64,000 nucleotides of DNA. Source: a virus. Where the stretch lies: IMG/VR virus record IMGVR_UViG_3300034063_001054, positions 124,001-188,000 of that record; one strand, given 5' to 3'. The stretch's first letter is position 1; each line of letters opens with the position of its first letter. The position numbers and the translations under genes are program-made. Below, one piece after another: positions 28,405 through 63,677 of this stretch. The notes beneath the pieces were generated by a model. It searched no databases, was not told the DNA's origin, and was given only the letters and a program-made list of their open reading frames with translations.

Positions 28405-28869
28405 ATGAGAATTACAGAATCACAACTTAACAACTTAGTTAAAAAAATAGTTAATGAAAAGGATTATGGACAAATCCAAAACTATATGTTCTTTTCAAAC
28501 TTAGAACAAATGATAAGACAAGCTCAATTATTATTAGAGTTAGACCCTATGGAAGTTGAAGCTATCCTAAAAGGTGGTCACGATTGGGCTGATGACCATA
28601 TAACAGTAGCAAAAGAAAATCTAAGTCAGGTATTTGATTTTATGATGAATGAAACTCAATATGATGACTATGAAGAAGACGAAGAAATGGTTATGATGGA
28701 AGGGAAAAAGAAAACTGGTACAAAACTATGTAGTCGAGGAAAAGCTGCAGCTAAATCCAAATTCAAAGTGTACCCCTCCGCTTATGCGAACGGTTTTGCC
28801 GTTCAAGTTTGTAAAGGTAAAATGAAAGGATTAGATGGAAAGAAACGTTGTTCCCCACCTTATTGTTAA
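28405..28869 (+). CDS. Phage protein with basic Cys-rich C-terminal domain
   Basis: 154 residues. The N-terminal helix ITESQLNNLVKKIVNE is a type seen at the start of many phage virion or internal proteins and may be a prohead-targeting peptide. An acidic linker (DDYEEDEEMV) leads to a basic domain KLCSRGKAAAKSKFKVYPSAYAN...VCKG, ending CSPPYC; I have the impression that similar short domains recur in T4-like phages. Function unknown. Last gene before the terminator at 28883. Confidence 0.75.
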   Translation: MRITESQLNNLVKKIVNEKDYGQIQNYMFFSNLEQMIRQAQLLLELDPMEVEAILKGGHDWADDHITVAKENLSQVFDFMMNETQYDDYEEDEEMVMMEGKKKTGTKLCSRGKAAAKSKFKVYPSAYANGFAVQVCKGKMKGLDGKKRCSPPYC

Positions 28870-30983: not shown

Positions 30984-31466
30984 CTATTTCTTTGATAATA
31001 TATCATAAAGTTTGTTTATGTTTTCCTGACTTAAATCGGTACCACTCAAACCTGCAAGTTTTAAAACTTCAGGTATTTGTGGTTTTACACTATTTATGAC
31101 TTTCCCCATTCCAATAATATTAGTTCCACTTGTTACTGGTGTAATCTGTATCTTTCCATCAGTACCACAATAATAAGTTGACATTTCTTTAGTTGTTTTA
31201 TTCATCCTTCTACCATTCCCAAACCATAAAAAACCACTTCCATCATACATAACTGTATTATCCTTTCTTAAAATTGGTTTAACATTTTTAGATTGTACAA
31301 CACACGGAAATTTTTCCCAACCTGTTGTAATAATACCTGTTCCTAAAGTTTTAAATAAGTCGGAAAAGATATTTTCAGTCAGATATTGTTTTTTGGTTCT
31401 GTTTTCGTGTAAATTCAAAATCCTTTCTCTTTCGGATTCATTCAAAAAATATAACTTCTTATTCAT
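30984..31466 (-). CDS. Late virion-like protein, 160 residues
   Basis: Not recognised by family. Starts with NESERERILNLHENRTKK then QYLTE-N, an L-x-E site like those cleaved by T4-type prohead proteases. A mixed domain (SGFLWFGNGRRMN; YYCGTDGKIQITPV) follows. It has its own ATATTTATA element 13 nt upstream, so it is late. Followed after 3 nt by the 136-residue gene. Confidence 0.7.
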   Translation of the reverse strand: MNKKLYFLNESERERILNLHENRTKKQYLTENIFSDLFKTLGTGIITTGWEKFPCVVQSKNVKPILRKDNTVMYDGSGFLWFGNGRRMNKTTKEMSTYYCGTDGKIQITPVTSGTNIIGMGKVINSVKPQIPEVLKLAGLSGTDLSQENINKLYDILSKK

Positions 31467-46135: not shown

Positions 46136-46936
46136 TTACTCAATAGAAAGTTTATTATCTATAAGTTTTAAAGGCGTTTTATATAATTTGTCAATATACC
46201 CATTTCTTCGTAATACTTTAAAAACCAAATTTTCCAAGCTCATTTCACCACCCCCTTTTAAACCACTTAATCTAAACTTTTTAAGTTTATTTTTAAATTG
46301 ATTTAGTGTTTTTTCGATTGTGTCAATATCTTGGTCTTCCATATTTTTTATCGAAGAATCAATAGTTCTCATCCATTGTTTAGATTTATTTTTTACATCT
46401 TTCAAATCCACTTTAAAATCAAACCTTTTGGGTGTTTTTAACCATTCATCATTCAGTAACGAATAAACACCTCCACTGATACCTTGCATATCAGTATCCT
46501 CAATGAAAAACTCAACATCAAAACCAAACATTTTTACATCTCTTTTTTGATTGAAAATTACTTTTTTCAAATCAAAATATTCAACGTACATATCTTTAAG
46601 TTCATTGGAAAATTGTTTGTAATCAACTAATATGTGCACGTCAATGTCTGAGAACTTAGACCAATTATAGTTAGCTATTGAACCAACTACAATAATGTCT
46701 TCAATAACAACGTCAATGTCCAAACTTTCAATAAATTGGTAAGTTATCTCAAGTAAATTTTTTCTAACCTTTGGGTTTATTTTATATTTCTGACCTTCAG
46801 GGTCACCCATATGTTTTTCATTTGGTAGATACCATATTTTTGGATACAACTGGTCTTGTACCTCGAAACTACTTAAAATATTTTCAATATTATCCATGTC
46901 TGATAAATATTCACATACATTGGAAATATACATCAA
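46136..46936 (-). CDS. Nucleotidyltransferase-fold protein
   Basis: 266 residues. IIVVGSIANYNWSKFSDIDVHILVDY is the pol-beta superfamily signature: GS followed by D-x-D about ten residues on (motif spans ~82-107), and a later DVEFFIED supplies the third acidic residue. The helical C-terminus is unassigned. Such proteins add nucleotides to RNA, protein or small molecules; phage copies are common and uncharacterised. Overlaps the upstream KTSC gene by 4 nt. Confidence 0.78.
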   Translation of the reverse strand: MMYISNVCEYLSDMDNIENILSSFEVQDQLYPKIWYLPNEKHMGDPEGQKYKINPKVRKNLLEITYQFIESLDIDVVIEDIIVVGSIANYNWSKFSDIDVHILVDYKQFSNELKDMYVEYFDLKKVIFNQKRDVKMFGFDVEFFIEDTDMQGISGGVYSLLNDEWLKTPKRFDFKVDLKDVKNKSKQWMRTIDSSIKNMEDQDIDTIEKTLNQFKNKLKKFRLSGLKGGGEMSLENLVFKVLRRNGYIDKLYKTPLKLIDNKLSIE

Positions 46937-47175
46937 ACCTTTTTGTACTTGTAATTTTTAGCGATGGTGGAACTAAAAAACTTACCTTGGGATTCCGATA
47001 ACCTGAATCTAGTGTAAATTGTGTGCGGTACTTCATCATATTCATATTTAGTTCCATTTTTGAATTCAACAATCATTTTTTTAGTTGCTGTATCATACTC
47101 ACTTCTTACTAAATTACTTGATTGTACTTCATTTATAATTTTTGTACCTACTATTTCTTCTTTTAATATTGCCAT
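46933..47175 (-). CDS. KTSC-domain protein
   Basis: 80 residues matching the KTSC domain: SSNLVRSEYD, MIVEFKNGTKYEYDEVP, and LSESQGKFFSSTIAKNYKYKKV at the end (KFFSSTIAKNY core). The domain is named for a Lys-Thr-Ser-Cys tail region of bacterial lysyl-tRNA synthetase-associated proteins and is often found alone in phages. Function unknown. ATGA overlap with the nucleotidyltransferase gene suggests co-expression. Confidence 0.8.
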   Translation of the reverse strand: MAILKEEIVGTKIINEVQSSNLVRSEYDTATKKMIVEFKNGTKYEYDEVPHTIYTRFRLSESQGKFFSSTIAKNYKYKKV

Positions 47176-47218: not shown

Positions 47219-47656
47219 TTAATTAATTTTTTTTAATTCATCTCTAATTTCTATAGCCCTTTCGAAATCTTGTTTTTCAATAGCTATTTCCATTTCTTTT
47301 TTGAGAGTTTCAATTTTCCCTTTGTTTTTCTGAAGTTCTTTTATTTCGTCTCTGATTTTAGCCGCCTGTTCAAAATCTTGGTTTTGGATACATTCGTTTA
47401 ATTTAGTTTCCAAATCCCTCTTTGTATTTGAATTAGATGCTGACCATTTTGTGTTAGGGTTAATCACAAAATGAATCGAAGTAATAATTCCATCCTTTGT
47501 CTTTCTAACTGAATTTCTTAGTTTACTAAAATCAGTATCAATGTCATCATACTTTAAATTCTCCAAGAAACTTTCAAATGGAATTGTTGGTTTATGTTTT
47601 CCACCGAAAATCTCATCCAAAATTTTCTCAAATTTTTTATAAAAATCGTTATCCAT
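47219..47656 (-). CDS. UVR-motif protein, McsA-like Clp adaptor candidate
   Basis: 145 residues. Two consecutive UVR motifs in the C-terminal half: CIQNQDFEQAAKIRDEIKEL and AIEKQDFERAIEIRDELKKI. UVR motifs mediate UvrB-UvrC contact and, in McsA and ClpC, adaptor-unfoldase contact. No CxxC zinc fingers of McsA are present; the N-terminal ~85 residues are of unknown fold. It is divergently transcribed from the ClpC-like gene, across a 166-bp region with inverted repeats, which supports a ClpC-partner role. That link is inference. Confidence 0.72.
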   Translation of the reverse strand: MDNDFYKKFEKILDEIFGGKHKPTIPFESFLENLKYDDIDTDFSKLRNSVRKTKDGIITSIHFVINPNTKWSASNSNTKRDLETKLNECIQNQDFEQAAKIRDEIKELQKNKGKIETLKKEMEIAIEKQDFERAIEIRDELKKIN

Positions 47657-47740
47657 AATAAATTGTTTGTTATTAAGTTTATTTTACTTAGTATTGTACG
47701 AATTATATACCAATTAATTAAGATAATCAATAATGTCACT

Positions 47741-47775
47741 TTGTAATTAAAAATACTGACATTTTGTCATTACAA
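47741..47775. promoter_or_regulatory. Nested dyad in the UVR/ClpC divergent region
   Basis: Inner palindrome TGACA-TTT-TGTCA (47757-47769) framed by TTGTAAT (47741-47747) and ATTACAA (47769-47775). A likely repressor operator or RNA hairpin. It lies 48 nt before the ClpC-like start and 85 nt from the UVR gene start. Confidence 0.55.
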
Positions 47776-47822
47776 GATTGTTGAAAATACCAAATAAAAC
47801 ATTATTATTAAATAAAAAAGTT

Positions 47823-49853
47823 ATGATAGAATCTAAAGATGGAGATTACTCAAGTAAAGGTAAGGGCGACACACCAGTATTAAATAATTTTGCAAAAGAT
47901 TTGGTTAAACTTGCGGAGGAGGGAAAATTAGACCCTGTTGTAGGTAGAGATAGAGAAATAACAAGAATAGCCCAAATATTATCAAGAAGAAAGAAAAATA
48001 ATCCAATTATAATCGGTGAACCAGGTTGTGGAAAAACCGCTATAGTAGAAGGTTTGGCCTTGAAAATATTGAATGGAGATTGTCCAAGAAATCTAATGGA
48101 TAAAAGAATTATGTCCTTAGATATGACCTCAATTGTTGCAGGTACAAAATATAGAGGACAATTTGAGGAAAGAATGAAGGTGATTATAGAAGAACTACAA
48201 GCCGCCCCAAATATCATTTTGTTTATCGATGAAATCCATCAAATTGTTGGTGCAGGTAATTCATCAGGTTCATTGGATGCCTCTAACATATTTAAACCAG
48301 CCTTAGCAAGAGGGGAAATCCAATGTATTGGTGCAACCACTTTGGATGAATATAGAAAGAATTTTGAAAAAGATGGGGCATTAGAAAGACGATTCCAAAA
48401 AGTAATTGTTGACCCATCAACTAAAGATGAAACATTACAAATTTTATTAAATGTCAAAGACAAATATGAAAATTACCATAAAGTAAATTATAGTGATGAT
48501 GTACTTAAACTTTGTGTTGATTTAGCAGAAAGATATATTACAGATAGAGAATTTCCGGATAAGGCATTTGACATTATTGATGAAGTCGGAGCAAGAAGTC
48601 AGGTTGAAATTAAAATGCCCCAAATTGTGGAGGATTTGAAAACACAAGCCCAAGAAATAAAAAAACAAAAAATAGATGTTGTAAAAAGTCAAAACTATGA
48701 ACTGGCTGCAGATTTAAGAGATAAGGAAACAAAAATATTAGATAAGTTAGAAGAGGAAAAAAAGAAATTCGAATTTGATTTATTAAACAAAAAGAAAGAA
48801 GTTAGTGTGGAACTAGTTTATGAAGTTGTATCTAATATGACTAAGATTCCTGTCTCAAAAATGGATTCTGATGAAACTAATAAACTTTCATCTCTTGATA
48901 ACAATTTGGCTTCGAAAGTTATTGGACAATCAGAAGCTGTTCTTAAAATCGCAAAAGCAATAAGGAGAAATAGATTGGGGATTAAAGACCCTAATAAACC
49001 AATTGGTTCATTTATTTTCTTAGGCTCAACAGGTGTGGGTAAAACTTATTTAGCCAAACAATTAGCTAAGGAAATATTTGGTAGTGAAGAAAATCTAATC
49101 CGTGTTGATATGTCAGAATTCCAAGAAAAACATTCAATATCAAGATTAATTGGTTCACCTCCAGGTTACGTTGGTTACGATGAAGGGGGACAACTTACCG
49201 AACAAGTGAAAAATAAACCATATTCAGTTATTTTATTCGATGAAATTGAGAAAGCAAATAAAGACGTGTTTGCAACGTTACTCCAAGTTTTAGACGATGG
49301 ACATCTTACTGATGGTCTTGGAAGAAAAATTAATTTCAAGAATTGTATCATTATTATGACCTCAAACCTTGGTGTCAAAAAACTACAAGATTTTGGTACT
49401 GGTGTTGGATTCAAAACAAACGCGAATGTTTACATTGAAGAGGAACATAAAAGGGATATGTTAAAAAAGGAATTGCAGAAATTCTTTGCCCCTGAATTCC
49501 TTAATCGTATTGATGAAATTATTGTTTTTAATACATTGAAGGAAGACGAAGTAAAACAAATTGTTAAATTAGAGGTCGATAAACTAATTAAAAGATTAGA
49601 AGGTTTGAATTATAATATTTCTTGTGATGATTCAGTTTTAGAATTAATTTCTAAAGTTGGTTTTGATGAAACATATGGTGCCAGACCAATCAAAAGAGCA
49701 ATTCAAGATAAAATTGAAGATTTTGTATCAGAAGAGGTGTTAAATGGTAAAATTATAGAAAATGAACAATACATTCTAACCGTAGATAATGAAAGTATAA
49801 TTTTCAAAGAAAAGGAAACCAAAAAAACCAAAAAGAAAAAAGGGACTGAATAG
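47823..49853 (+). CDS. clpC: ClpC-like AAA+ unfoldase lacking the N-domain
   Basis: ATG at 47823 chosen over an upstream in-frame TTG. 676 residues, two AAA+ modules: Walker A GEPGCGKT (~65-72) and B LFIDEI; second Walker A GSTGVGKT (~401-408) and B ILFDEIEKA. The middle region has a UVR-like SQNYELAADLRDKE (~289-302), as in ClpC and unlike ClpB. The second module keeps the ClpP-docking tripeptide VGF (~528-530). The ~150-residue Clp_N domain that binds adaptors is absent. It would unfold substrates for a host ClpP. Divergent from the UVR-motif gene. Terminator overlaps the stop. Confidence 0.88.
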   Translation: MIESKDGDYSSKGKGDTPVLNNFAKDLVKLAEEGKLDPVVGRDREITRIAQILSRRKKNNPIIIGEPGCGKTAIVEGLALKILNGDCPRNLMDKRIMSLDMTSIVAGTKYRGQFEERMKVIIEELQAAPNIILFIDEIHQIVGAGNSSGSLDASNIFKPALARGEIQCIGATTLDEYRKNFEKDGALERRFQKVIVDPSTKDETLQILLNVKDKYENYHKVNYSDDVLKLCVDLAERYITDREFPDKAFDIIDEVGARSQVEIKMPQIVEDLKTQAQEIKKQKIDVVKSQNYELAADLRDKETKILDKLEEEKKKFEFDLLNKKKEVSVELVYEVVSNMTKIPVSKMDSDETNKLSSLDNNLASKVIGQSEAVLKIAKAIRRNRLGIKDPNKPIGSFIFLGSTGVGKTYLAKQLAKEIFGSEENLIRVDMSEFQEKHSISRLIGSPPGYVGYDEGGQLTEQVKNKPYSVILFDEIEKANKDVFATLLQVLDDGHLTDGLGRKINFKNCIIIMTSNLGVKKLQDFGTGVGFKTNANVYIEEEHKRDMLKKELQKFFAPEFLNRIDEIIVFNTLKEDEVKQIVKLEVDKLIKRLEGLNYNISCDDSVLELISKVGFDETYGARPIKRAIQDKIEDFVSEEVLNGKIIENEQYILTVDNESIIFKEKETKKTKKKKGTE

Positions 49854-49865
49854 TCCCTTTTTTTA
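49839..49865. terminator. Bidirectional terminator overlapping the ClpC stop codon
   Basis: AAAGGGACT-GAAT-AGTCCCTTT with T runs on both sides; the TAG stop is in the loop and descending arm. It serves the plus-strand ClpC gene and the convergent minus-strand gene at 49866. Confidence 0.9.
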
Positions 49866-50537
49866 TTATTTTATTAATTGTTTGAATCTATCAATTTCCT
49901 CTTTTAAATTTTCTTCTTTTTTCTTTTCCTCTGTACCCTTTGTTTCACCTGTACTTGTTAAAGGACTTGTTGACTTCTTAGTTGTTGTAGTTGTTGTAGT
50001 ATCAAAATCAACCACTTCAGGTTTACTCAAATCTTCTTCAGGACTCATTTCATCCTTTGACATCATCAAATCTTTACCTATTTGCGCTCTCTTTGAACCA
50101 GGAACAACATCTAATCGTTGTCCACTCAATTTTTCAGTAGATAAAAGATTTATTTCACCTAAAGCTTTTTTGTAACCAGGAAAAAATGGTTCCCACTTTG
50201 TAATAACAAAATCCAAAAGTTTTAACAATCTCATTTTTTTCTCAGGTGCGATTGATAACTTATCAACTCTTGGTTTTAACTCCTTGAGTTCTTCCATAAA
50301 TTTTTCAATGTCATCAAGTTCTTTAATTACTTTTTGACTTCTATTTTTAATTTTACTCAAAAATTTAAAATAACCAAAACTTTCACCTTTCATAAAACCT
50401 CTTACACCTTGGAAAAAGTCACTAGCTTTAGTACCACTTAGAATTTCGTCTAATTCTTCTGTTTGAGATTCAGTTTCTAAAATTATATTAGATAATCTTT
50501 CGATGTCACTTTCATTAATATTTCTATACTTACTCAT
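49866..50537 (-). CDS. Putative late internal protein, 223 residues
   Basis: N-terminus MSKYRNINESDIERLSNIIL is of the short targeting-helix type seen in other late genes here. A helical middle (FKFLSKIKNRSQKVIKELDDI) is followed by a Thr-rich linker and the C-terminal EENLKEEIDRFKQLIK, which closely resembles the end of the LytM-like protein at 54817. Late element 12 nt upstream. Family unknown. Confidence 0.65.
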   Translation of the reverse strand: MSKYRNINESDIERLSNIILETESQTEELDEILSGTKASDFFQGVRGFMKGESFGYFKFLSKIKNRSQKVIKELDDIEKFMEELKELKPRVDKLSIAPEKKMRLLKLLDFVITKWEPFFPGYKKALGEINLLSTEKLSGQRLDVVPGSKRAQIGKDLMMSKDEMSPEEDLSKPEVVDFDTTTTTTTKKSTSPLTSTGETKGTEEKKKEENLKEEIDRFKQLIK

Positions 50538-50549
50538 AATTTTTTTATT

Positions 50550-50557
50550 TATAAATA
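50550..50557 (-). promoter_or_regulatory. Late promoter-like element
   Basis: Sense strand CTATATTTATAAATAAAAAA, 12 nt before the ATG at 50537. Confidence 0.6.
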
Positions 50558-50578
50558 TAGTAATATATGAAAAAAAAA

Positions 50579-51370
50579 TTATTTTTTAGTGTATTTTTTT
50601 GTACCCAACTCAGATATCATTTTCTTAGCAATATCCAAAGTATTATATACATCATCAACAATTACATATTCGTGTTCTGTGTGATAGTTGTAATAACCAA
50701 CAGCAAAGTTTATACAGGAAAAATCAAATAGTTGTTTAAGTGCGTAAACATCAGTATAAGGGTGGGATTGGTATTTGTTTCGACTATTAAAACCCTCCGT
50801 TAATACTTTGTCACATTTATCGAAGAAATCACTACCCTTATCAAATAGTTTGACACCCATACAATACTCACTGACCATCCAATTACCAGGAGCATCAAAT
50901 TGCATAACATAACCAACATTTGAGAAGAAATCTTTATCGGCTTTTTTTGACCCATGACATCCTGTTTCTTCCGATACAAAGAAAGCTGCTTTGACATTTG
51001 GTAATTGTTTTAATAACTCCAAACAAACATAAACACCACATTTGTCATCACCCCCAATTCCAGTGGGTAATCCTTGGTCATTAAAAGCCTTTAAGGCCAT
51101 CTTTAATTCGTTTTGGTCATTGGGTAACATCATCTCACGAATATTGATTGTATCGAGCTCGTGAACGGTATCTGTGTGGGCAACGACACAAGGAAAATAT
51201 TCAACCTCATCAGTTTGTTTGGTTGCATAAACATTTCCCATCTTATCAACAAAATAAGGAATATTATTTTCAACCAACCATTCGGTTAAAAATTGAATCA
51301 TTAAATCCTCTTTATATGTTTTTGTGGGGACAGATAAAACCCTTTTTAAAAAATTGATATTTTGTTCCAT
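50579..51370 (-). CDS. M20/M42-type zinc peptidase
   Basis: 263 residues with the two-metal ligand set: VVAHTDTVH (His, Asp nearby), GIGGDDKCG (bridging Asp), VSEETGCHG (Glu pair), FDAPG (Asp) and YHTEHEY (distal His). The family contains cytoplasmic aminopeptidases and tripeptidases (PepT, M42). It is shorter than PepT because the dimerisation domain is reduced. A phage peptidase next to a Clp-type unfoldase could finish peptide recycling; that link is inference. 8 nt from the upstream 464-residue gene. Confidence 0.82.
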   Translation of the reverse strand: MEQNINFLKRVLSVPTKTYKEDLMIQFLTEWLVENNIPYFVDKMGNVYATKQTDEVEYFPCVVAHTDTVHELDTINIREMMLPNDQNELKMALKAFNDQGLPTGIGGDDKCGVYVCLELLKQLPNVKAAFFVSEETGCHGSKKADKDFFSNVGYVMQFDAPGNWMVSEYCMGVKLFDKGSDFFDKCDKVLTEGFNSRNKYQSHPYTDVYALKQLFDFSCINFAVGYYNYHTEHEYVIVDDVYNTLDIAKKMISELGTKKYTKK

Positions 51371-51379
51371 AGAACAATA

Positions 51380-52774
51380 TTACATAATTCTTTTCAATCT
51401 TTTTACTAAACTTTCAAAAAGTTCTGGTGAATGTAAATAATTAACAAACTCTTCTATTGTGTAACTTCTTCTTTCTCCCCTTCCTGATGATTTATTCCAA
51501 TGAACTATTACTACTTTTGAGTCGTCTTTTCTAATTTCGTCAATTCTGAATGAATTTTCCGTGTTTGGTAATTTATATTGACCACCAATTTGGTAACCCA
51601 TATCATTAAGTTTTTTCAATACATCGGCATAGTTTTTGAAGGCCTCAAACTTTTCAGGTTCATCTTCTATTTCTTCTAATATTGTATCCAATTGGTCACC
51701 AACAACATCATTAAATTGTTCAAAATCAAAATCCCAACTATCCATAGCCACTTCATTATAATAACCAATATCTAAGTCCATTTCTTCACCCAATTCCTTA
51801 AATAGTTCAACAATTGTTGCTTGTTTACTTTGAGTTTTTTTATATAAACTTAATAGGATATTTACGGTTGTCACATAATTTGTAAAAACACCTGATTTTC
51901 TGAAAACCCCATATTGTTGGAATACATCCGCAATATCTTTTATACCAATTTCTTTGATTTTTTCTACTGCGGATTCGTTTCTTAATGAATTGTACTCATC
52001 AGCAATCCTTTCACCAACCACCGGAAAATTGGTATCTAAGAACTGAACAACACTCTTATTATATTTATCCTCATCTTTGTCTTTTAAATCTTTTACACCA
52101 GGAATTAGAAATGAAACAATATCATCCAACTTTTTTTTGTTTTTATCATCAAATGAACCAAACATATAACCTTCTTTCCAATCGTCCCAAGTCATATCAC
52201 TAGGTATCAAATCAAAAGAACTACCATAATAACTATTTCCAAATATAGACCCCAATATCCTTGCATCCCATTCACCTTCTTTATAGTCAAAAAAAGATAT
52301 ATATTCATCAGCATCAAACATAAGTTGAATCATACTCTTACCAGGATTCTTTTCGTTAAGTGTCATCCCATTTAAAGATTCATCAATGCTTCTCATATCC
52401 CATTTATCATATTTTTTACCCGCCTTAATTAATAACAACATTTCATAAGGGTTCTCAGGTTTAATGAACTCAACAAGTTTCGATTCTAATTGTGGATAAT
52501 CCTCAATTACATCCATAAAGTTATTTACCATCCCATCAAAATCCAACACATCAGTATAGCCATTTCTTACTTGATTCAATACATAACTATTCTCACCATC
52601 TTTATCAACGATTAAATAGACATCACCATATCTATTGAACTTATTATATTCTCTCTTCAATTTTTCAGAAGCGTAGTAGTCCATAGCGTCATACCCTTTC
52701 ACTTTGATAAATAAAACCTTATCATCCTCAAATTTAATCTCTGATTCTTCATCAGCTAATTCCTTCGGTGTCAT
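51380..52774 (-). CDS. Large hypothetical late protein, 464 residues
   Basis: Acidic, soluble, not recognised. It has several Asp/Tyr-rich stretches (FDYKEGEWDARILGSIFG; DMTWDDWKEGYMFGSF), a central helical part and a C-terminal SH3-like segment (GGQYKLPNTENSFRIDEIRKDDSKVVIVHW across ~405-435), ending LFESLVKRLKRIM. The late element is 16 nt before the ATG. Co-transcribed with the peptidase gene. Virion or infection-stage role unknown. Confidence 0.65.
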   Translation of the reverse strand: MTPKELADEESEIKFEDDKVLFIKVKGYDAMDYYASEKLKREYNKFNRYGDVYLIVDKDGENSYVLNQVRNGYTDVLDFDGMVNNFMDVIEDYPQLESKLVEFIKPENPYEMLLLIKAGKKYDKWDMRSIDESLNGMTLNEKNPGKSMIQLMFDADEYISFFDYKEGEWDARILGSIFGNSYYGSSFDLIPSDMTWDDWKEGYMFGSFDDKNKKKLDDIVSFLIPGVKDLKDKDEDKYNKSVVQFLDTNFPVVGERIADEYNSLRNESAVEKIKEIGIKDIADVFQQYGVFRKSGVFTNYVTTVNILLSLYKKTQSKQATIVELFKELGEEMDLDIGYYNEVAMDSWDFDFEQFNDVVGDQLDTILEEIEDEPEKFEAFKNYADVLKKLNDMGYQIGGQYKLPNTENSFRIDEIRKDDSKVVIVHWNKSSGRGERRSYTIEEFVNYLHSPELFESLVKRLKRIM

Positions 52775-52790
52775 AAAAAATATTTTTCTT

Positions 52791-52798
52791 TATAAATA
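52791..52798 (-). promoter_or_regulatory. Late promoter-like element
   Basis: Sense strand GGTATTTATAAAGAAAAAT, 16 nt before the ATG at 52774, back to back with the tmRNA promoter. Confidence 0.6.
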
Positions 52799-52800
52799 CC

Positions 52801-52831
52801 TTGGTTTATTCATTATTTATATTTATCCTTG
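52801..52831 (+). promoter_or_regulatory. Host-type promoter of the tmRNA gene
   Basis: TTG (52801-52803), 20-nt spacer, TATCCTTG (52824-52831; one mismatch to TAnnTTTG). Expected start is about 15 nt before the mature tmRNA 5' end. Confidence 0.6.
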
Positions 52832-52852
52832 TATAAAGTTAATTGAAAATAT

Positions 52853-53231
52853 GGGGGTAATCTGGAATCGACTGACGTTGTTAGTTATTCGGGGCATGCC
52901 GGACCTGAACTAAGTCCGTTAAACTGGTTTGAAACGATACACGGCAACGTTATCAACAAACTTTCTGCAGTAGGTTTAATCCGTGCTGAAGAAGCGGTAG
53001 TAGCCTAGTCAATAGGATATTACTTTCGAGTCGGGGTGCATTAACTCAGGAACAGGAGCACTGAAGGGTTGTCTAACTAATTCTCATCCCTAAAAATGAA
53101 TTGGCTGATTTTGTTGGTTTTGGTAGTAATTAAAATCAAATAGCTCGGAGCACTGCGAATAATGTTGTCCTAAGCATGTAGTCCTTAATAGTTAAGATGG
53201 ACAGGAAAGGGTTCGACTCCCTATACCTCCA
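52853..53231 (+). ncRNA. ssrA: tmRNA (transfer-messenger RNA)
   Basis: A complete one-piece tmRNA. The acceptor stem pairs GGGGGTA (52853-52859) with TACCTCC (53224-53230; one G-U), discriminator A at 53231, and the CCA end is not encoded (CCG follows). Conserved tmRNA blocks are present: AATCTGGAATCGACT, GCATGCCGGACC, TAAGCATGTAGTCC and the T-arm GGGTTCGACTCCC. The reading frame from GGC at 52943 encodes 21 residues, GNVINKLSAV then GLIRAEEAVVA, stopping at TAG 53006-53008. Typical Bacteroidetes tags are shorter and end ALAA. Host SmpB would be needed; none was seen here. It rescues stalled ribosomes and tags the product. Confidence 0.95.
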
Positions 53232-53245
53232 CCGCAGAAAAAAAT

Positions 53246-53270
53246 AAACCCCTCTTTTTAGGAGGGGTTT
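53246..53270. terminator. Bidirectional terminator between tmRNA and a membrane protein gene
   Basis: AAACCCCTC-TTTTTAG-GAGGGGTTT, 9-bp stem. The T-rich tail is stronger on the minus strand (TTTATTTTTTT), so it mainly ends the minus-strand gene but also lies 15 nt after the tmRNA. Confidence 0.82.
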
Positions 53271-54816: not shown

Positions 54817-55461
54817 TTATTTTATAAGTTGTTTAATTCTTTGCACTTCCTCTTCTAAATTTTCTTTTTCTGCTTTTTTCCTTTTCATTCTATTTTGAAG
54901 ATAAGTACCAGCCATTCCTAATAAATGAAAGGGGACTAAACCAACATCTAGTAAAGAAAGTTTACCAGGTTCATAAGTTTTTAAACCAGGTACATATTTT
55001 TCTTTCTTATTTTTTTCTTTTTGTTTTTCGAATTTATCTGAAGTTTCTTTGTCTTTAATTTGGATTTCCTTTTCTTTTGATACATTTTTTTCTTGTTTAG
55101 GTTCTGTTCTAAGATTTACACTACCAGTGAAGAATGGTGTTATCAATTGTTCCAAATTACCTGAATCTACAATTTCCATACTGAAAGGACTTGAACTTGT
55201 TTTACCTATAATTTCCCCCATTCTTACAGTATCCCCATTAGATTTATATATGTCACCTAATTCATAAAATTTAGTAGTATAAGTGTCTTTTGAAAAAAAG
55301 TGTTTAATTTTAACTAGTCCCTTCTTCTTATCAACACCATAAATCTTTCCATCAAAAGGGGCGTAAACATCAACACCATTTCTATAAGGGGTATAAGTCC
55401 ATCTTTTGAATTTACTTGTATCTAAATTAGCATCTGTTGTTGGTGGATAAAATTTTACCAT
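54817..55461 (-). CDS. LytM/M23-like domain protein, probably inactive
   Basis: 214 residues. Residues ~20-105 resemble the M23 beta-barrel (YRNGVDVYAPFDGKIYGV, GLVKIKHFF, YELGDIYKSNGDTVRMGEIIGKT), but the first metal-binding histidine is Asn (RNGVD) and no later HxH is seen, so catalysis is unlikely. A Lys/Glu-rich linker, a short hydrophobic helix (LDVGLVPFHLLGMAGTYL) and the C-terminal EEEVQRIKQLIK follow. May bind cell wall or be a virion tail protein. Confidence 0.65.
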   Translation of the reverse strand: MVKFYPPTTDANLDTSKFKRWTYTPYRNGVDVYAPFDGKIYGVDKKKGLVKIKHFFSKDTYTTKFYELGDIYKSNGDTVRMGEIIGKTSSSPFSMEIVDSGNLEQLITPFFTGSVNLRTEPKQEKNVSKEKEIQIKDKETSDKFEKQKEKNKKEKYVPGLKTYEPGKLSLLDVGLVPFHLLGMAGTYLQNRMKRKKAEKENLEEEVQRIKQLIK

Positions 55462-60279: not shown

Positions 60280-60374
60280 TATCATAAATATCCTAAATGT
60301 CAGTATCTAAAAATCCCAACATATAAAATATTAATAGTACAATTAACATTACATAAAGCATAAGATAATTTTTG

Positions 60375-60451
60375 TACCCCCTGAGAGAATCGAACTCTCA
60401 ATCAAAACATCATCCTAAATGATGCGCGTCTACCTATTCCGCCAAGGGGGT
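60375..60451 (-). tRNA. tRNA-Leu(TAG)
   Basis: Acceptor ACCCCCT/AGGGGGT, D-arm GGCGGAATAGGTAGACGC, anticodon stem-loop CATCA-TTTAGGA-TGATG (anticodon TAG), T-arm GAGAG-TTCGATT-CTCTC. The variable region is only ~8 nt, unlike the long arm normal for tRNA-Leu. CCA not encoded. Confidence 0.85.
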
Positions 60452-60460
60452 ATTTTTGTA

Positions 60461-60542
60461 GTCGGGATGAGACTCGAACTCATAAGGTCTTACTGACCAC
60501 AACGGTTTAAGTGTTGCGTGGATACCAATTTCACCACCCGAC
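60461..60542 (-). tRNA. tRNA-Leu(TAA)
   Basis: Acceptor GTCGGG/CCCGAC, Leu-type D-arm GGTGAAATTGG, anticodon loop CTTAAAC (TAA) on stem CAACA/CGTTG with one A-C mismatch, long variable arm GGTC-AGTAA-GACC, T-arm ATGAG-TTCGAGT-CTCAT. CCA not encoded. Confidence 0.88.
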
Positions 60543-60547
60543 CTACA

Positions 60548-60679
60548 TTACAAACCAAATCCCAACTTAATGAGATATACCAAACCCAGTACAATTAAAG
60601 CTAACATCGTACCTGCAAACATCTGTAAAGAAAACTTAACTTGTTCTTCACTTTTTCCTTGATTCTTGTTCTCCATCAT
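60548..60679 (-). CDS. Single-pass membrane peptide, 43 residues
   Basis: ATG at 60679 overlaps the preceding stop as ATGA. Charged N-terminus (NKNQGKSEEQVKF) and a C-terminal hydrophobic helix (MFAGTMLALIVLGLVYLI). Likely inner-membrane; function unknown. Confidence 0.58.
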   Translation of the reverse strand: MMENKNQGKSEEQVKFSLQMFAGTMLALIVLGLVYLIKLGFGL

Positions 60680-60918
60680 AAAAATTTTTGATAATCCATA
60701 AAATGTTTATTTACCCACATTTTACCTGTTACTTGAGTTGGATGTTCTCGTTTACTTAGGTCGAAAATTTCAACCATCGTTTTTCTTTCATTATCTAACT
60801 CATCCCAAAGATAAGATATCGCCAAGTTTAATTTCCGTTTTTCCTCAGTACCAACCTCGGACTCTCTGACAAGTTTTTCTAACTTTGCTATAACATTTTG
60901 AATGGGGGTGTTTTTCAT
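60676..60918 (-). CDS. Hypothetical helical protein, 80 residues
   Basis: I chose ATG at 60918 (MKNTPIQNVIAKLEK); the open frame upstream begins inside the previous gene and has a poor sequence. Helical and charged, with a KREHPTQVTGKMWVNKHFMDY tail (positions ~57-77). Coupled to the membrane peptide by ATGA. Confidence 0.6.
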   Translation of the reverse strand: MKNTPIQNVIAKLEKLVRESEVGTEEKRKLNLAISYLWDELDNERKTMVEIFDLSKREHPTQVTGKMWVNKHFMDYQKFL

Positions 60919-60934
60919 CACAACTTTAATTTTT

Positions 60935-61111
60935 TTAATTGTTAATGTCAAGTTCCAACTGACTCTCACTAAATATGTGCAACATTCCATTGTCGATTAA
61001 TTCAGCAACAATTCTTGTTTCACCTGATGTGGTTTGAAATACCGCCACTACGATACCAGGGAACTTATACCCTTTTGGTTTGTAAACCTTGTCTCCTACT
61101 TTGAACTTCAT
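60935..61111 (-). CDS. Small KOW/SH3-like protein, 58 residues
   Basis: ATG at 61111, TAA at 60935. KFKVGDKVYKPKGYKFPGIV looks like a KOW-type beta motif at the start of a small SH3-like barrel, with a second strand block (TRIVAELIDNGMLHIF). Common as small phage nucleic-acid or structural modules. Function unknown. Confidence 0.6.
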   Translation of the reverse strand: MKFKVGDKVYKPKGYKFPGIVVAVFQTTSGETRIVAELIDNGMLHIFSESQLELDINN

Positions 61112-61117
61112 TTTTTT

Positions 61118-61522
61118 CTATTTTAAATAATTAACATGTATTGAATGAAAACCCTCACTCCTATTTATTTTTAATTCCATCCTTGAACCAGTAACATAAT
61201 CAACCCAAACATTTTCACCAACTTTCACATATGGCTCCAAATCTTTATAAGATTTGTTTAACATCTTGATTGGTCTGTAAACACTCCAATTTGCACAATA
61301 TTCTACCCCATTACTTTCAACAAAAATGAACCCATAACTTTCCAATTGTTTCTCGTCCATATACACAATATCATAATAATAAGTAAAAATCTTTAATCCA
61401 TCAATGAATTCGGTTTTGTGATTTGTACCTAGATTTTTTTCAATTTGTTGGGGAGATAAACCTAGTTGTGCAAATGTTAAAAATGGTAAAAATAATAATA
61501 GAAATAAAATCGTTTTTTTCAT
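61118..61522 (-). CDS. Secreted hypothetical protein, 134 residues
   Basis: N-terminal signal peptide (KKTILFLLLFLPFLTFAQ, cleavage after TFA). The mature part has mixed strands (IFTYYYDIVYMDEKQLE; GFIFVESNGVEYCANW) without a recognised domain. Would be periplasmic. Expression could come from the tRNA-side upstream region. Confidence 0.68.
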   Translation of the reverse strand: MKKTILFLLLFLPFLTFAQLGLSPQQIEKNLGTNHKTEFIDGLKIFTYYYDIVYMDEKQLESYGFIFVESNGVEYCANWSVYRPIKMLNKSYKDLEPYVKVGENVWVDYVTGSRMELKINRSEGFHSIHVNYLK

Positions 61523-61536
61523 AATTTTTGTTTTAG

Positions 61537-61610
61537 TACACCCATTTGGATTCGAACCAAAGACCTACTGCTTAGAAGGCAGTTGCTCTATCCAGCTGAG
61601 CTATGGGTGC
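61537..61610 (-). tRNA. tRNA-Arg(TCT)
   Basis: Acceptor GCACCCA/TGGGTGT (first pair G-U), D-arm AGCTCAGCTGGATAGAGC, anticodon stem-loop ACTGC-CTTCTAA-GCAGT, T-arm TTTGG-TTCGAAT-CCAAA. Reads AGA codons, frequent in this AT-rich genome. Confidence 0.95.
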
Positions 61611-61651
61611 ATAATTTCCCCACCTTGAGATTACTGGTGAGTAGTTATTTC

Positions 61652-61674
61652 GGTTTTTTCCTATTCAAAAAACC
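61652..61674 (-). other. Conserved hairpin with GAATAGG loop, copy 1
   Basis: Minus strand GGTTTTTT-GAATAGG-AAAAAACC, followed by GAAAT. It lies 42 nt upstream of tRNA-Arg. A second copy with a shorter stem precedes another tRNA at 62706. Possible processing or control element. Confidence 0.55.
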
Positions 61675-61829
61675 TGTTGGGCATCCCCACTGAAAAAAGT
61701 CACACATACGAAGGAGGGGGTGTGCTGCCGCCTTTAACCCTAAGAATCGGCATTCCGTTGTCCGATTTGAACGAGTTCATTGTTAAATGAGTCTTGAACC
61801 AAAGACTGCTGAGTATCTCTTACTCATTG
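61675..61829 (-). other. Non-coding stretch with decayed tRNA-like sequence
   Basis: No open frame above ~20 codons. Minus-strand GCAGTCTTTGGTTCAAG resembles the 3' half of the tRNA-Arg at 61537 but cannot complete its T-stem; an AATGAGT/ACTCATT pair encloses it. Possibly a tRNA relic. Confidence 0.4.
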
Positions 61830-61936
61830 TAGTCAGGACAGGATTCGAACCTGTAAAATCTTTTATCTGGTTTAGGGTAGGTTCTATTCCTATCTCCTTC
61901 CAAAACATATAGCGTCTACCATTCCGCCACCTGGCT
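61830..61936 (-). tRNA. Unusual tRNA-like gene, isotype unclear
   Basis: Acceptor AGCCAGG/CCTGACT (one mismatch), Leu-like D-arm GGCGGAATGGTAGACGC, perfect T-arm ACAGG-TTCGAAT-CCTGT and discriminator A. The middle is about 20 nt too long and I cannot form a normal anticodon arm; CTAT/ATAG pairs leave a large loop. The 3' part is nearly identical to the tRNA at 62606. Either an inserted/intron-bearing tRNA or a pseudogene. Confidence 0.5.
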
Positions 61937-61941
61937 AAATT

Positions 61942-62202
61942 TTAATTCAGTGCATCTATTTCCATACAATACAAACCGAACTCTTGTATTTCATCACCAT
62001 ATCTATACTTGTAAGTTCCCTCATATATGTCGGGATAACTACTATCATAAGGAAAATAACCCAAGTATTCAACATCCTTATCTTCAAAGTAGGGTGGTAA
62101 TCCCATATACTCATCCAAGAGTTGTTTGACCTTTTCAACTGTCGTTGCAGTTAGTACTGGGATTTTATCTTCCCTATCTACTATAAGATATATTAGTGCC
62201 AT
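61942..62202 (-). CDS. Hypothetical protein, 86 residues
   Basis: Not recognised. Begins ALIYLIVDREDKIPVLTATT, then a helical VEKVKQLLDEYM and an acidic/Tyr-rich end (YRYGDEIQEFGLYCME). Overlaps the upstream gene by 10 nt. Its stop is 5 nt from the tRNA-like gene. Confidence 0.65.
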   Translation of the reverse strand: MALIYLIVDREDKIPVLTATTVEKVKQLLDEYMGLPPYFEDKDVEYLGYFPYDSSYPDIYEGTYKYRYGDEIQEFGLYCMEIDALN

Positions 62203-62573
62203 TGTTGTAAACTTTTATTTATATTAATTTTTGTCAATTTTTTTTTTCTTTTTTTTTTATTTTTTTCTTTTCCTTTTTTTTCTTTTATTTTTTTTTCTTT
62301 TGTTTTTACGACTTCCACCAAATCCATTTCTGGGTCAGATAATTCTTGATAACCAAACATTGAAAAGTCAGAAATATAAGACCACCACTTTCCATCAAAA
62401 ACATATCTTTCATGGTCTATTTTTGGTTTTTTATTGTCAATGCTTTTACCAAAATAAATTCCATCCCATCCATCTCTTTTCCCTTCTATTGGTGGATTAC
62501 CCTTGATAATTTTTACTAATCTACCATCTCTACTCTTGTAAGTTTTACCTACTTCTAAAATTATATTTTCCAT
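62193..62573 (-). CDS. Hypothetical protein with poly-Lys tail, 126 residues
   Basis: ATG at 62573; the longer open frame runs through the tRNA at 62606 and is rejected. The N-terminal ~80 residues look folded (ILEVGKTYKSRDGRLVKIIKG; DGIYFGKSIDNKK; WWSYISDFSMFGYQEL). The last ~40 are a lysine-rich tail (KEKKIKEKKGKEKNKKKRKK) from a near homopolymeric A tract, where slippage or a sequencing indel could alter the true end. Confidence 0.6.
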   Translation of the reverse strand: MENIILEVGKTYKSRDGRLVKIIKGNPPIEGKRDGWDGIYFGKSIDNKKPKIDHERYVFDGKWWSYISDFSMFGYQELSDPEMDLVEVVKTKEKKIKEKKGKEKNKKKRKKKLTKININKSLQQWH

Positions 62574-62605
62574 ATTTATAATTTTTATTTTTTTAAATAA
62601 GTTAG

Positions 62606-62686
62606 TAGTCAGGACAGGATTCGAACTTGTGACGATAAACGCAGATGTGTACCTCATCTTGGCAGCTCCAATTCTGCCACCTGACT
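62606..62686 (-). tRNA. Class II tRNA-like gene, anticodon GTA by position
   Basis: Acceptor AGTCAGG/CCTGACT is perfect, D-stem GCAG/CTGC, anticodon stem AGATG/CATCT with loop AGGTACA (GTA, Tyr), a variable arm GCG-TTTAT-CGT, and T-arm ACAAG-TTCGAAT-CCTGT with one mismatch. Position 33 is G instead of T, which is abnormal. Isotype tentative. Confidence 0.6.
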
Positions 62687-62705
62687 TTGTTTGTTTAAAC
62701 TTTTC

Positions 62706-62724
62706 GGTTTTCCTATTCAAAACC
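62706..62724 (-). other. Conserved hairpin with GAATAGG loop, copy 2
   Basis: Minus strand GGTTTT-GAATAGG-AAAACC followed by GAAAA, 19 nt upstream of the class II tRNA. Same loop and flank as copy 1 at 61652, with a shorter compensated stem. Confidence 0.55.
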
Positions 62725-62786
62725 TTAACGTCAGGCAACAATCTAAGTGTCAGCCACTACTTGTGAATTATTAGGTGTCACAACCA

Positions 62787-63014
62787 TTAGAAATATTTTC
62801 TTGTCGCCCATTCATATGTATAAAACTCAGGAGCATTACCATTAGGTAGAGATAAAAACATAAAACCATTGTAAGCATTAGATTTATGTAAGATATGTTC
62901 AATCATTGTAATAACCCCCATTTTTTCATCCAAAGATATATTGGTGTTACTGAGTACCAAGTTAGCATAATCTTTTATTTCTTGAACTTGGATTGTTTTT
63001 TTCTCTTTTGCCAT
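62787..63014 (-). CDS. Hypothetical protein, 75 residues
   Basis: Not recognised. Basic start (AKEKKTIQVQEIKDYANLVL), a helical middle and an aromatic end (PEFYTYEWATRKYF). Has its own host-type promoter, so probably early. No family recognised. Confidence 0.68.
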   Translation of the reverse strand: MAKEKKTIQVQEIKDYANLVLSNTNISLDEKMGVITMIEHILHKSNAYNGFMFLSLPNGNAPEFYTYEWATRKYF

Positions 63015-63036
63015 TGTGTTTCCGTTTAAGTGTTCA

Positions 63037-63067
63037 CAAATATAGAAATAGATTTTTAATTACACAA
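63037..63067 (-). promoter_or_regulatory. Bacteroidetes-type promoter
   Basis: Sense strand TTG (63067-63065), 20-nt spacer, TATATTTG (63044-63037), 22 nt before the ATG at 63014. Confidence 0.78.
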
Positions 63068-63097
63068 CCTTTGATGAATATTTTTGGGAAAATATTT

Positions 63098-63170
63098 GAG
63101 CGGATAGTTGGTACCGCCCCAACTTATCTAGTTTGGAAGACTAGAACATTACTTTTATGCTATACCCGCT
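63098..63170 (-). tRNA. tRNA-Gly(TCC), non-canonical D- and T-loops
   Basis: Acceptor AGCGGGTA/TATCCGCT can form 8 bp; anticodon stem-loop CTAGT-CTTCCAA-ACTAG is canonical (TCC, Gly). The D-loop AAAAGTA lacks the GG pair and the T-arm GTTGG-GGCGGTA-CCAAC lacks TTC, so the usual D/T-loop contact cannot form. Either a specialised or a non-functional tRNA. Confidence 0.65.
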
Positions 63171-63173
63171 AAT

Positions 63174-63404
63174 TTACCTTAGATTCCAAATACCACCAGC
63201 AAAACACTTGAAGTCATTGTAACTTGTAACTCTTATAGGGTTTTCTTCATATTTCCACCTATTACAAGTTATATAGATTTCTCCTGTCCATTTATCCTTT
63301 TTGAGAAAGGTATAAATACCATTACGAGATTTGATATGGATTTTATCCCCATTTTTGAGGTTCTTAAACTGAGACAATCTTATTTGTTCCATAAGTGATT
63401 CCAT
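63174..63404 (-). CDS. Hypothetical protein, 76 residues
   Basis: Not recognised. A likely small beta-barrel (NLKNGDKIHIKSRNGIYTFL; GEIYITCNRWKY). An in-frame Met at residue 5 is an alternative start. It sits between two tRNA genes, 3 nt before the tRNA-Gly(TCC), so its transcript could include the tRNA. Confidence 0.6.
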   Translation of the reverse strand: MESLMEQIRLSQFKNLKNGDKIHIKSRNGIYTFLKKDKWTGEIYITCNRWKYEENPIRVTSYNDFKCFAGGIWNLR

Positions 63405-63424
63405 AGTATTTGAATAAAAAGTGG

Positions 63425-63496
63425 AGCCGGTATGAGGAATCGAACCCCATTATCTTGATTACAAGTCAAGTACATCACCACTTATGCTTTACCGGC
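63425..63496 (-). tRNA. tRNA-Thr(TGT)
   Basis: Acceptor GCCGGTA/TACCGGC perfect, D-arm GCAT-AAGTGGTG-ATGT, anticodon stem-loop CTTGA-CTTGTAA-TCAAG, T-arm TGGGG-TTCGATT-CCTCA. CCA not encoded. Canonical in all arms. Confidence 0.95.
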
Positions 63497-63513
63497 ATTT
63501 ATAATTGGGTGGT

Positions 63514-63599
63514 AGGGACTTCCACCCATAGACTTAAGGTTTTTTAGTTATTTTACAATAACCTGCCCGTGTGTCCTTCACCTTAAAACGGGAGTCCCT
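63514..63599 (-). ncRNA. Structured tRNA-like element
   Basis: A perfect 7-bp closing stem AGGGACT/AGTCCCT, an inner CCCGT/ACGGG arm at the D-arm position, and GTTAT-TGTAAA-ATAAC, which resembles a tRNA-Tyr anticodon arm (TTGTAAA) but with a 6-nt loop. No TTC T-loop. Lies between two real tRNAs. Possibly a degenerate tRNA. Confidence 0.45.
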
Positions 63600-63604
63600 T
63601 ATGG

Positions 63605-63677
63605 AGCGATAGACAAGATTCGAACTTGCGACTTTAATCTTGGCAAGATTATGCTCTACCTACTGAGCTACTATCGC
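63605..63677 (-). tRNA. tRNA-Gly(GCC)
   Basis: Acceptor GCGATAG/CTATCGC perfect, D-arm AGCTCAGTAGGTAGAGC, anticodon stem-loop TAATC-TTGCCAA-GATTA, T-arm GCAAG-TTCGAAT-CTTGT. The 5' end overlaps the end of the preceding gene by 7 nt. Confidence 0.95.

Follow-up and report, generated by a model that had tools for sequence, protein, structure and literature searches.

A predicted trans-translation and proteolysis island with a tag of its own in a lineage of large T4-like phages

Phages have for years been known to carry genes for transfer-messenger RNA (tmRNA), or ssrA, whose purpose is not settled. A list of the phages carrying them is available (PMC4131195), tmRNA and SmpB were noted in huge phages (PMC7162821), and a recycling role has already been suggested for the tmRNA of phage Melnitz (PMC9004378); the available portions of these three reports mention no link to ClpC for the Melnitz, huge-phage or mycobacteriophage tmRNAs. 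Other phages modulate Clp proteolysis: SPO1 Gp53 is described as an adaptor-like protein for ClpC (PMC6873191), and pf16 has an analogue of SspB, an adaptor for the ssrA tag, and is reported without tmRNA in the portion available (PMC5587285). Here, we analysed a window of 64,000 nucleotides, positions 124,001 to 188,000 of the 194,498-base IMG/VR virus record IMGVR_UViG_3300034063_001054, which carries a tmRNA together with genes for a ClpC-type unfoldase, a UVR-motif protein and a metallopeptidase (Table 1). As in Melnitz, the huge phages, the mycobacteriophages and phage G, ssrA is phage-encoded; the tmRNA here is in one piece, that of Melnitz in two. Unlike in SPO1 and pf16, which supply an adaptor only, the unfoldase and the tmRNA both belong to the phage. 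Among the open-licence papers listed by our searches, judged mostly by titles and the beginnings of abstracts, we found no phage with tmRNA, ClpC, UVR protein and peptidase together, and no description of the tag family reported below or of a phage tmRNA joined to a phage ClpC. We propose, with a probability of roughly 55%, that the phage carries here an island for trans-translation and proteolysis whose virus-specific tag is probably recognised by the phage ClpC working with the host ClpP.

Pfam, PHROG and Rfam matches confirmed all four elements where the preliminary description had placed them. The tmRNA gene matched RF00023 over the full model in an Rfam covariance search (95.4 bits against a gathering score of 47, E 6.3e-36). 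It was missed by ARAGORN, and BLAST of the tmRNA and of its tag against 50,697 phage records gave no match. The acceptor stem, GGGGGUA/UACCUCC, contains the alanine-type G3-U70 pair, and the T arm could be read from the sequence. The gene ends in ACCG, and the terminal CCA of the RNA must therefore be completed. On these sequence features, the gene is a real, full-length tmRNA with a tag frame, for which SmpB-dependent tagging is predicted.

To delimit the tag, the window was compared with relatives baited with the terminase (best 80 of 590 loci; the records of 33 of these, for the most part the longer records, were searched together with the window's own record, 34 in all). The preliminary description had taken AEEAVVA for the whole tag, which is wrong: the relatives share one frame open from the GGC at 52943, and AEEAVVA is only the C-terminal third of a 21-residue tag that joins it to GNVINKLSAVGLIR. 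The frame opens about 90 nt from the 5′ end of the tmRNA and is common to all 20 tmRNAs of the terminase-baited records, the window's own included, 19 of them read by script and one, L100, by eye. The script-read tags all have 21 or 22 residues, and that of L100, on the other strand, begins with the codon GGA and reads GNVLNKMALVGLVRQDELVNVA. A related tag, GNTLNKLQAVGLLRTEEVTVA, was found in L498, which belongs to a deeper branch.

In a larger set of 115 tags counted to the stop, 84 have 21 residues and 31 have 22. The conserved part comprises the first 14 residues, GNxxxKxxxxGLx(R/K), followed by a small hydrophobic end that is mostly -VA; the last residue is alanine in 115/115 and the last two are Val-Ala in 104/115. 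Arg-14 is present in all 32 distinct 21-residue tags of this set and is encoded by CGT, AGA and CGC, and lysine can take its place in 22-residue tags. For 11 distinct 21-residue sequences, not chosen by their tag, the ratio of non-synonymous to synonymous variation (pN/pS) was 0.52 in the tag frame versus 0.98 and 1.03 in the other two frames. This lower ratio indicates that the tag frame is under protein-level selection across the relatives. For codons 1-14, pN/pS was 0.161/0.382 in frame, and 0.193/0.282 and 0.245/0.142 out of frame; for codons 15-21, the values were 0.289/0.465 in the tag frame (frame 0), and 0.414/0.169 and 0.216/0.516 (frame 2) in the others.

The distribution of the tag was analysed with a degenerate DNA pattern for its first 13 codons, which itself fixes part of codons 1-13. 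At least 119 stretches matched in viral_contigs and none in genome_contigs, which holds one genome per species for 84,980 bacterial and archaeal species. The tag frame continues in all 119 stretches listed, from which the 115 tags above were obtained after three ran off the end of the locus and one was dropped by the length rule. Among the 31 pattern-found records of at least 60 kb, 30 gave an Rfam tmRNA match at E ≤ 1e-15, 29 of them above the cut-off; G036 gave none at E ≤ 1e-15 despite its tag pattern. Judged by these sequence searches, the tag is viral and was not found in the bacterial sequences covered.

The Bacteroidota tags are of another kind. A tmRNA was present in 20 of the 22 Bacteroidota genomes compared, and the 15 tags read by a script that sought a G-codon start and a hydrophobic end all have nine residues, G(E/D)xNYA(L/M)AA; five more, whose start was chosen by eye, have 9-10 residues and end in AA. 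All 20 are thus 9-10 residues long, versus 21-22 in the phage lineage, and the commonest length of bacterial tags is given as 10 (PMC11915505). The tmRNA tags of phage G and LR756511 are also short. Long tags occur elsewhere: the tmRNA of mycobacteriophage Bxz1 reportedly has one, and in huge phages we read by eye tags of 36 residues in LR756508 (92434-92880) and of 24 residues in LR756504 (280507-280863), the latter also starting xNV. The phage locus therefore resembles the bacterial tmRNA (SsrA)-SmpB-Clp system in its tmRNA fold, G3-U70 pair, usual place of the tag frame, small hydrophobic tag end and Clp unfoldase, and differs from it in the length of the tag, the new conserved N-terminal part and the fact that it is carried by a phage, near ClpC and a peptidase. 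The corrected tag makes the observation more interesting than first stated.

Co-occurrence of these genes was then assessed. RF00023 was found in 20 of the 34 terminase-baited records. Upstream of the terminase, the 14 tmRNA-negative records have between 1.1 and 13.8 kb of sequence, eleven of them less than 10 kb. The other three, G008, G028 and G003, stop short of the tmRNA position or within it, as judged from the window or from their nearest relatives (G020, G002). A true loss of tmRNA from these 14 was ruled out, as their contigs end before or inside its place; none of the 34 records covers that place without a tmRNA. The tag-baited records contain ClpC in 30/31 and the peptidase in 31/31 cases, and true absence of ClpC from the remaining one, G047, was ruled out, the contig beginning between ClpC and the peptidase. 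Over the 50 records searched (the window's own, 14 terminase-baited, 31 tag-baited and 4 huge phages), ClpC and the peptidase were each found in 49. The tmRNA lies downstream of ClpC, on the same strand and 1,971-4,336 bp away, in all 43 records with both, and the peptidase gene stands between them, on the opposite strand in 42 and on the same strand in G045. In the deeper branch, whose ClpC (L495, L498) is about 69% identical to that of the window, nine loci (L492-L499, L540) have ClpC followed by a peptidase gene of the same orientation; the gap, measured in four of them, is 51-52 bp. Co-occurrence within this phage lineage is strong. The preliminary description had proposed co-occurrence of all four genes in relatives as a test: this held for tmRNA, ClpC and peptidase wherever the contig covers the place, and held only in part for the UVR gene, which stands divergent beside ClpC in only 27 of the 45 records with ClpC.

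The window ClpC matches PHROG 4871 (E 1.7e-242), and its nearest solved structure is Staphylococcus aureus ClpC (E ~2e-222). Since this alignment begins only at ClpC residue 155, the phage protein appears to have no N domain, and no Clp_N match was present among the 25 of 45 Pfam hits listed. Two AAA+ modules and a ClpC-type M domain are present, with a UVR motif in the M domain according to the Pfam profile; a strict motif string found it in 0/68 viral ClpCs, being too strict for a motif that the profile does find. The ClpP-docking loop seen in the preliminary description is indeed there, as GTGVGF, and is kept in 67 of 68 distinct relative ClpCs, an intact loop from which degradation with ClpP is predicted. 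Translation more likely starts at ATG 47823, because the relatives start at the matching methionine. The closest bacterial ClpCs (best 80 of at least 587 confirmed candidates) are 55-59% identical and all from Bacteroidota by title. In a ClpC tree of 42 rows, all 18 rows from phages group together (100/98); the tree does not resolve the donor, since the branches of two huge-phage rows are very long and the bacterial rows are all Bacteroidota by choice of scan.

In L007 (1-3106), L008, L134 and L205, ClpC is split at Walker A, between GEPG and CGKT, in what looks like a fractured split intein. The N-part has about 24 residues (L007, L008, L205) and the C-part about 135 residues before CGKT, and L007 and L205 also have a separate 400-residue endonuclease-like open reading frame. 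Shortened ClpC matches of the same split kind were seen in G002, G036 and G062.

The UVR gene product matches PF02151 in two stretches (E 2.3e-22), and in an alignment of 15 sequences both repeats keep a DFE core. Its AlphaFold model is poor, with a mean predicted local distance difference test score (pLDDT) of 60.6 and an N-terminal half mostly below 55. The locus resembles ClpCP with its adaptors (MecA, McsA, plastid CLPF) in the UVR-type M domain of ClpC and the UVR protein encoded beside it, and differs in the N-domain-less ClpC and in a UVR protein that is optional. McsA has zinc fingers and CLPF a YccV domain; the phage protein contains a single cysteine, hence no McsA-type zinc fingers, and gave no Pfam match to a zinc-finger or YccV domain. 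In the published accounts, as far as available, the phenylalanine of the ClpC UVR motif controls assembly and the adaptor response, ClpC1 without its N domain still responds to ClpS (PMC6274998), and UVR proteins are enriched on a plastid CLPC1 trap (PMC8889267). Together with the DFE cores of both repeats, these results make a contact between the phage UVR protein and the UVR-type M domain of ClpC plausible by analogy. As an obligatory adaptor, the UVR protein was ruled out by the 18 of 45 ClpC records that have none beside ClpC. Between the UVR gene and ClpC (47657-47822) lies an inverted repeat, AATGTCA...TGACATT, a possible operator.

The peptidase matches PHROG 4191 (E 1.8e-42) and, just above the cut-off, Pfam M42 (24.1 bits versus 23.2). 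H65, D67, D109, E134, E135, D159 and H230, its candidate metal-binding and catalytic residues (metal ligands and acids), do not vary among the 24 sequences compared. Its model (pLDDT 93.2) is closest in fold to the tripeptidase PepT (query-based template modelling score, TMq, 0.78) and to M42 TET aminopeptidases (TMq ~0.6-0.7), with 263 residues versus 304-490 in the structural matches listed.

As for the partners of the tmRNA and of ClpC, SmpB and ClpP were each found in 4 of the 34 terminase-baited records; in a second set of 35, SmpB was found in 8 (5/31 IMG/VR tag-baited, 3/4 huge phages) and ClpP in 12 (8/31 and 4/4, respectively). In 7 of the 9 IMG/VR records with SmpB, its gene and the tmRNA are 91-1,082 bp apart and on opposite strands; in G029 and G039, SmpB is more than 100 kb away. 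In LR756504, SmpB is 3.7 kb from ClpC (534503-536428 and 540105-540527), with the tmRNA far off.

Promoter motifs were counted upstream of these genes and compared with 100 shuffles, the sequences being related and the counts therefore not independent. Upstream of the long-tag tmRNA, TTG-N15-23-TAnnTTTG occurs in 47 of 68 distinct regions (shuffled mean 1.0, maximum 4), with its end at a median distance of 24 nt from the start of the RNA, and fits the Bacteroidota promoter as published in the portion available (PMC7366714). The full motif precedes the peptidase in 31/68 regions (shuffled mean 0.7) and the terminase in 0/35 (shuffled mean 0.3). The tmRNA leader contains GTTCTTT(A/G), which resembles boxA, in 44/68 regions (shuffled mean 0.6, maximum 3). 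The window's own candidate tmRNA promoter is one base off TAnnTTTG at -7, and its tmRNA is without the leader motif. In the UVR upstream regions, the ClpC-directed strand has the promoter motif in 7/42, and these may be ClpC promoters. Overall, the counts are consistent with a host among the Bacteroidota and with tmRNA and peptidase gene being transcribed in the host's manner; one expression programme is not proved. In 51/68 distinct regions upstream of the peptidase, TAnnTTTG ends at a median distance of 4 nt from the ATG taken as the start, which would point to nearly leaderless peptidase transcripts. As candidate T4-type late promoters of the island, exact TATAAATA sites precede 49866-50537 and 51380-52774, and (T/A)ATAAATA is found some 62 nt upstream of the tmRNA in 55/68 relatives; this motif occurs on the opposite strand as well, in 43/68.

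In the mechanism that we propose, the phage tmRNA, with host SmpB or with phage SmpB in some relatives, would rescue ribosomes stalled during infection and add the phage tag. The phage ClpC would recognise this tag through its GNxxxKxxxxGLx(R/K) part and its small hydrophobic end, mostly -VA, helped in some phages by the UVR protein through contact with the UVR-type M domain. ClpC would then feed host (or phage) ClpP, the peptidase would trim the short products, and the phage would gain a degradation address of its own beside that of the host. The route from tag to ClpC, ClpP and peptidase appears to us the most economical reading. The interpretation in the preliminary description is partly supported: the co-occurrence within the lineage agrees with it, the tag had been delimited wrongly, the UVR gene proves optional, and the path from stalled ribosome to amino acids stays an inference.

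A more specific form of this proposal, which we hold tentatively and at somewhat less than even odds, is that of a private degradation language, in which the N-domain-less phage ClpC, whether or not aided by the UVR protein, would read the virus-only two-part tag, and host ClpX would not read it efficiently. The virus would in that case govern both the rescue of ribosomes during infection and what becomes of the rescued proteins, apart from the host's own system. Were the tag private to the phage ClpC, the two would make an orthogonal degron pair, and protein quality control in infected cells would be seen in a new light. With a tag found only among viral sequences tied here to an unfoldase and a peptidase, the purpose of a phage tmRNA becomes directly testable with a tagged reporter, phage ClpC and Bacteroidota ClpP.

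Several observations weigh against the joint tagging and degradation route. All of the fixed gene order comes from one lineage, so that shared descent could explain the co-occurrence. A second ClpC-bearing phage lineage, found by a scan with the ClpC of LR745206, gave no Rfam tmRNA in 18/18 loci, up to 6 kb around ClpC; tblastn over all 32 loci of this lineage gave no SmpB, one weak peptidase match and no UVR gene, the last a weak test since UVR proteins vary. LR745206 and LR756502 have ClpC and SmpB and no tmRNA call, under the stricter filters used for large input, and tmRNA and ClpC are far apart in LR756508 and LR756504. Phage immuto, the nearest isolate with a Flavobacterium host by terminase (27% identity), is without tmRNA. 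The window's own record has no match to SmpB or ClpP, and the UVR gene is missing beside ClpC in the 18 records noted above. The full promoter motif is weak before ClpC (10/63, shuffled mean 0.4) and not above chance before the UVR gene (2/42, shuffled mean 0.3). Finally, taken alone, codons 15-21 do not have their lowest pN/pS in the tag frame, so this short C-terminal part does not single out the frame.

The lineage-bound co-occurrence and the 0/18 loci of the second lineage with a tmRNA near ClpC would suit genes that are neighbours by descent and work apart, the tmRNA rescuing ribosomes, its tag leading to host ClpXP and ClpC serving virion assembly, takeover or the removal of host proteins. 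Promoter signals that differ from gene to gene point the same way, as does the frequent -VA end, compatible with general Clp degrons such as the engineered LVA variants. We nevertheless regard this separation as less likely than the joint route, because order and strand are fixed over ClpC identities down to about 69% and because the conserved part of the tag is its first 14 residues, which a simple C-terminal degron would not need. That same N-terminal conservation, a length twice the usual and the lack of the host YA(L/M)AA end would also be expected of an address that is no degron, protecting rescued chains or sending them to a phage structure or partner; the small hydrophobic C-terminus of all 115 tags and the adjoining unfoldase and peptidase make this improbable. 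Still less credible is a decoy tmRNA that blocks host trans-translation, for which the tRNA-like-domain-only form of mycobacteriophage DS6A offers a precedent in the available portions of two reports (PMC4131195, PMC11915505): the window tmRNA matches the full model, its tag frame is under selection, promoter and leader motifs accompany the gene family, and SmpB stands beside the tmRNA in relatives.

Table 1. Features of the island, in window coordinates
Feature	Position	Strand	Evidence
UVR protein (145 residues) with two repeats, each with a DFE core	47219..47656	-	Pfam; alignment of 15
ClpC-type AAA+ unfoldase, two ATPase modules	47778..49853	+	Pfam, PHROG, structure match
Gene, function not known, ClpC-peptidase interval	49866..50537	-	Variable; tblastn match in 7 relative loci
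M20/M42-type metallopeptidase, 263 residues	50579..51370	-	Pfam, PHROG, structure model
Gene, function not known, peptidase-tmRNA interval	51380..52774	-	tblastn match in 14 relative loci
Candidate Bacteroidota-type tmRNA promoter: TTG, 20 bases, TATCCTTG	52801..52831	+	Sequence
tmRNA gene, one-piece	52853..53234	+	Rfam RF00023, 95.4 bits
Tag reading frame GNVINKLSAVGLIRAEEAVVA, stop TAG	52943..53008	+	Frame common to 20/20 terminase-baited tmRNAs
Terminator-like hairpin AAACCCCTC/GAGGGGTTT, 3′ of tmRNA	53246..53270	+	Read from the sequence

The island belongs to large T4-like phages of one lineage, whose hosts are probably Bacteroidota. Between 32 and 42 kb, the minus strand of the window encodes T4-like proteins of the head and of packaging: a major head protein, maturation protease, portal and terminase. 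The island itself also includes the two minus-strand genes of Table 1 whose function is not known. Its neighbours, a nucleotidyltransferase-like gene at 46136-46936 and a KTSC-domain gene at 46933-47175, are kept in 35 and 34 relative loci, respectively, by tblastn. Six tRNA genes were called by ARAGORN at 60374-63677 (Leu, Leu, Arg, Tyr, Thr, Gly), the first about 7 kb past the tmRNA, and Rfam gives seven tRNA matches in this interval. A contig of the second ClpC-bearing lineage, L462, encodes a GOLLD RNA (3247-3654, 270 bits) some 2.3 kb away from ClpC. Many proteins of the window bear a short helix-like peptide at the C-terminus (e.g. NLKEEIDRFKQLIK, NLEEEVQRIKQLIK) or at the N-terminus, among them those encoded at 49866-50537, 54817-55461, 51380-52774, 28405-28869 and 30984-31466. 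These peptides are reminiscent of the capsid-targeting sequences of T4; the DNA of two of the C-terminal tails is 81% alike.

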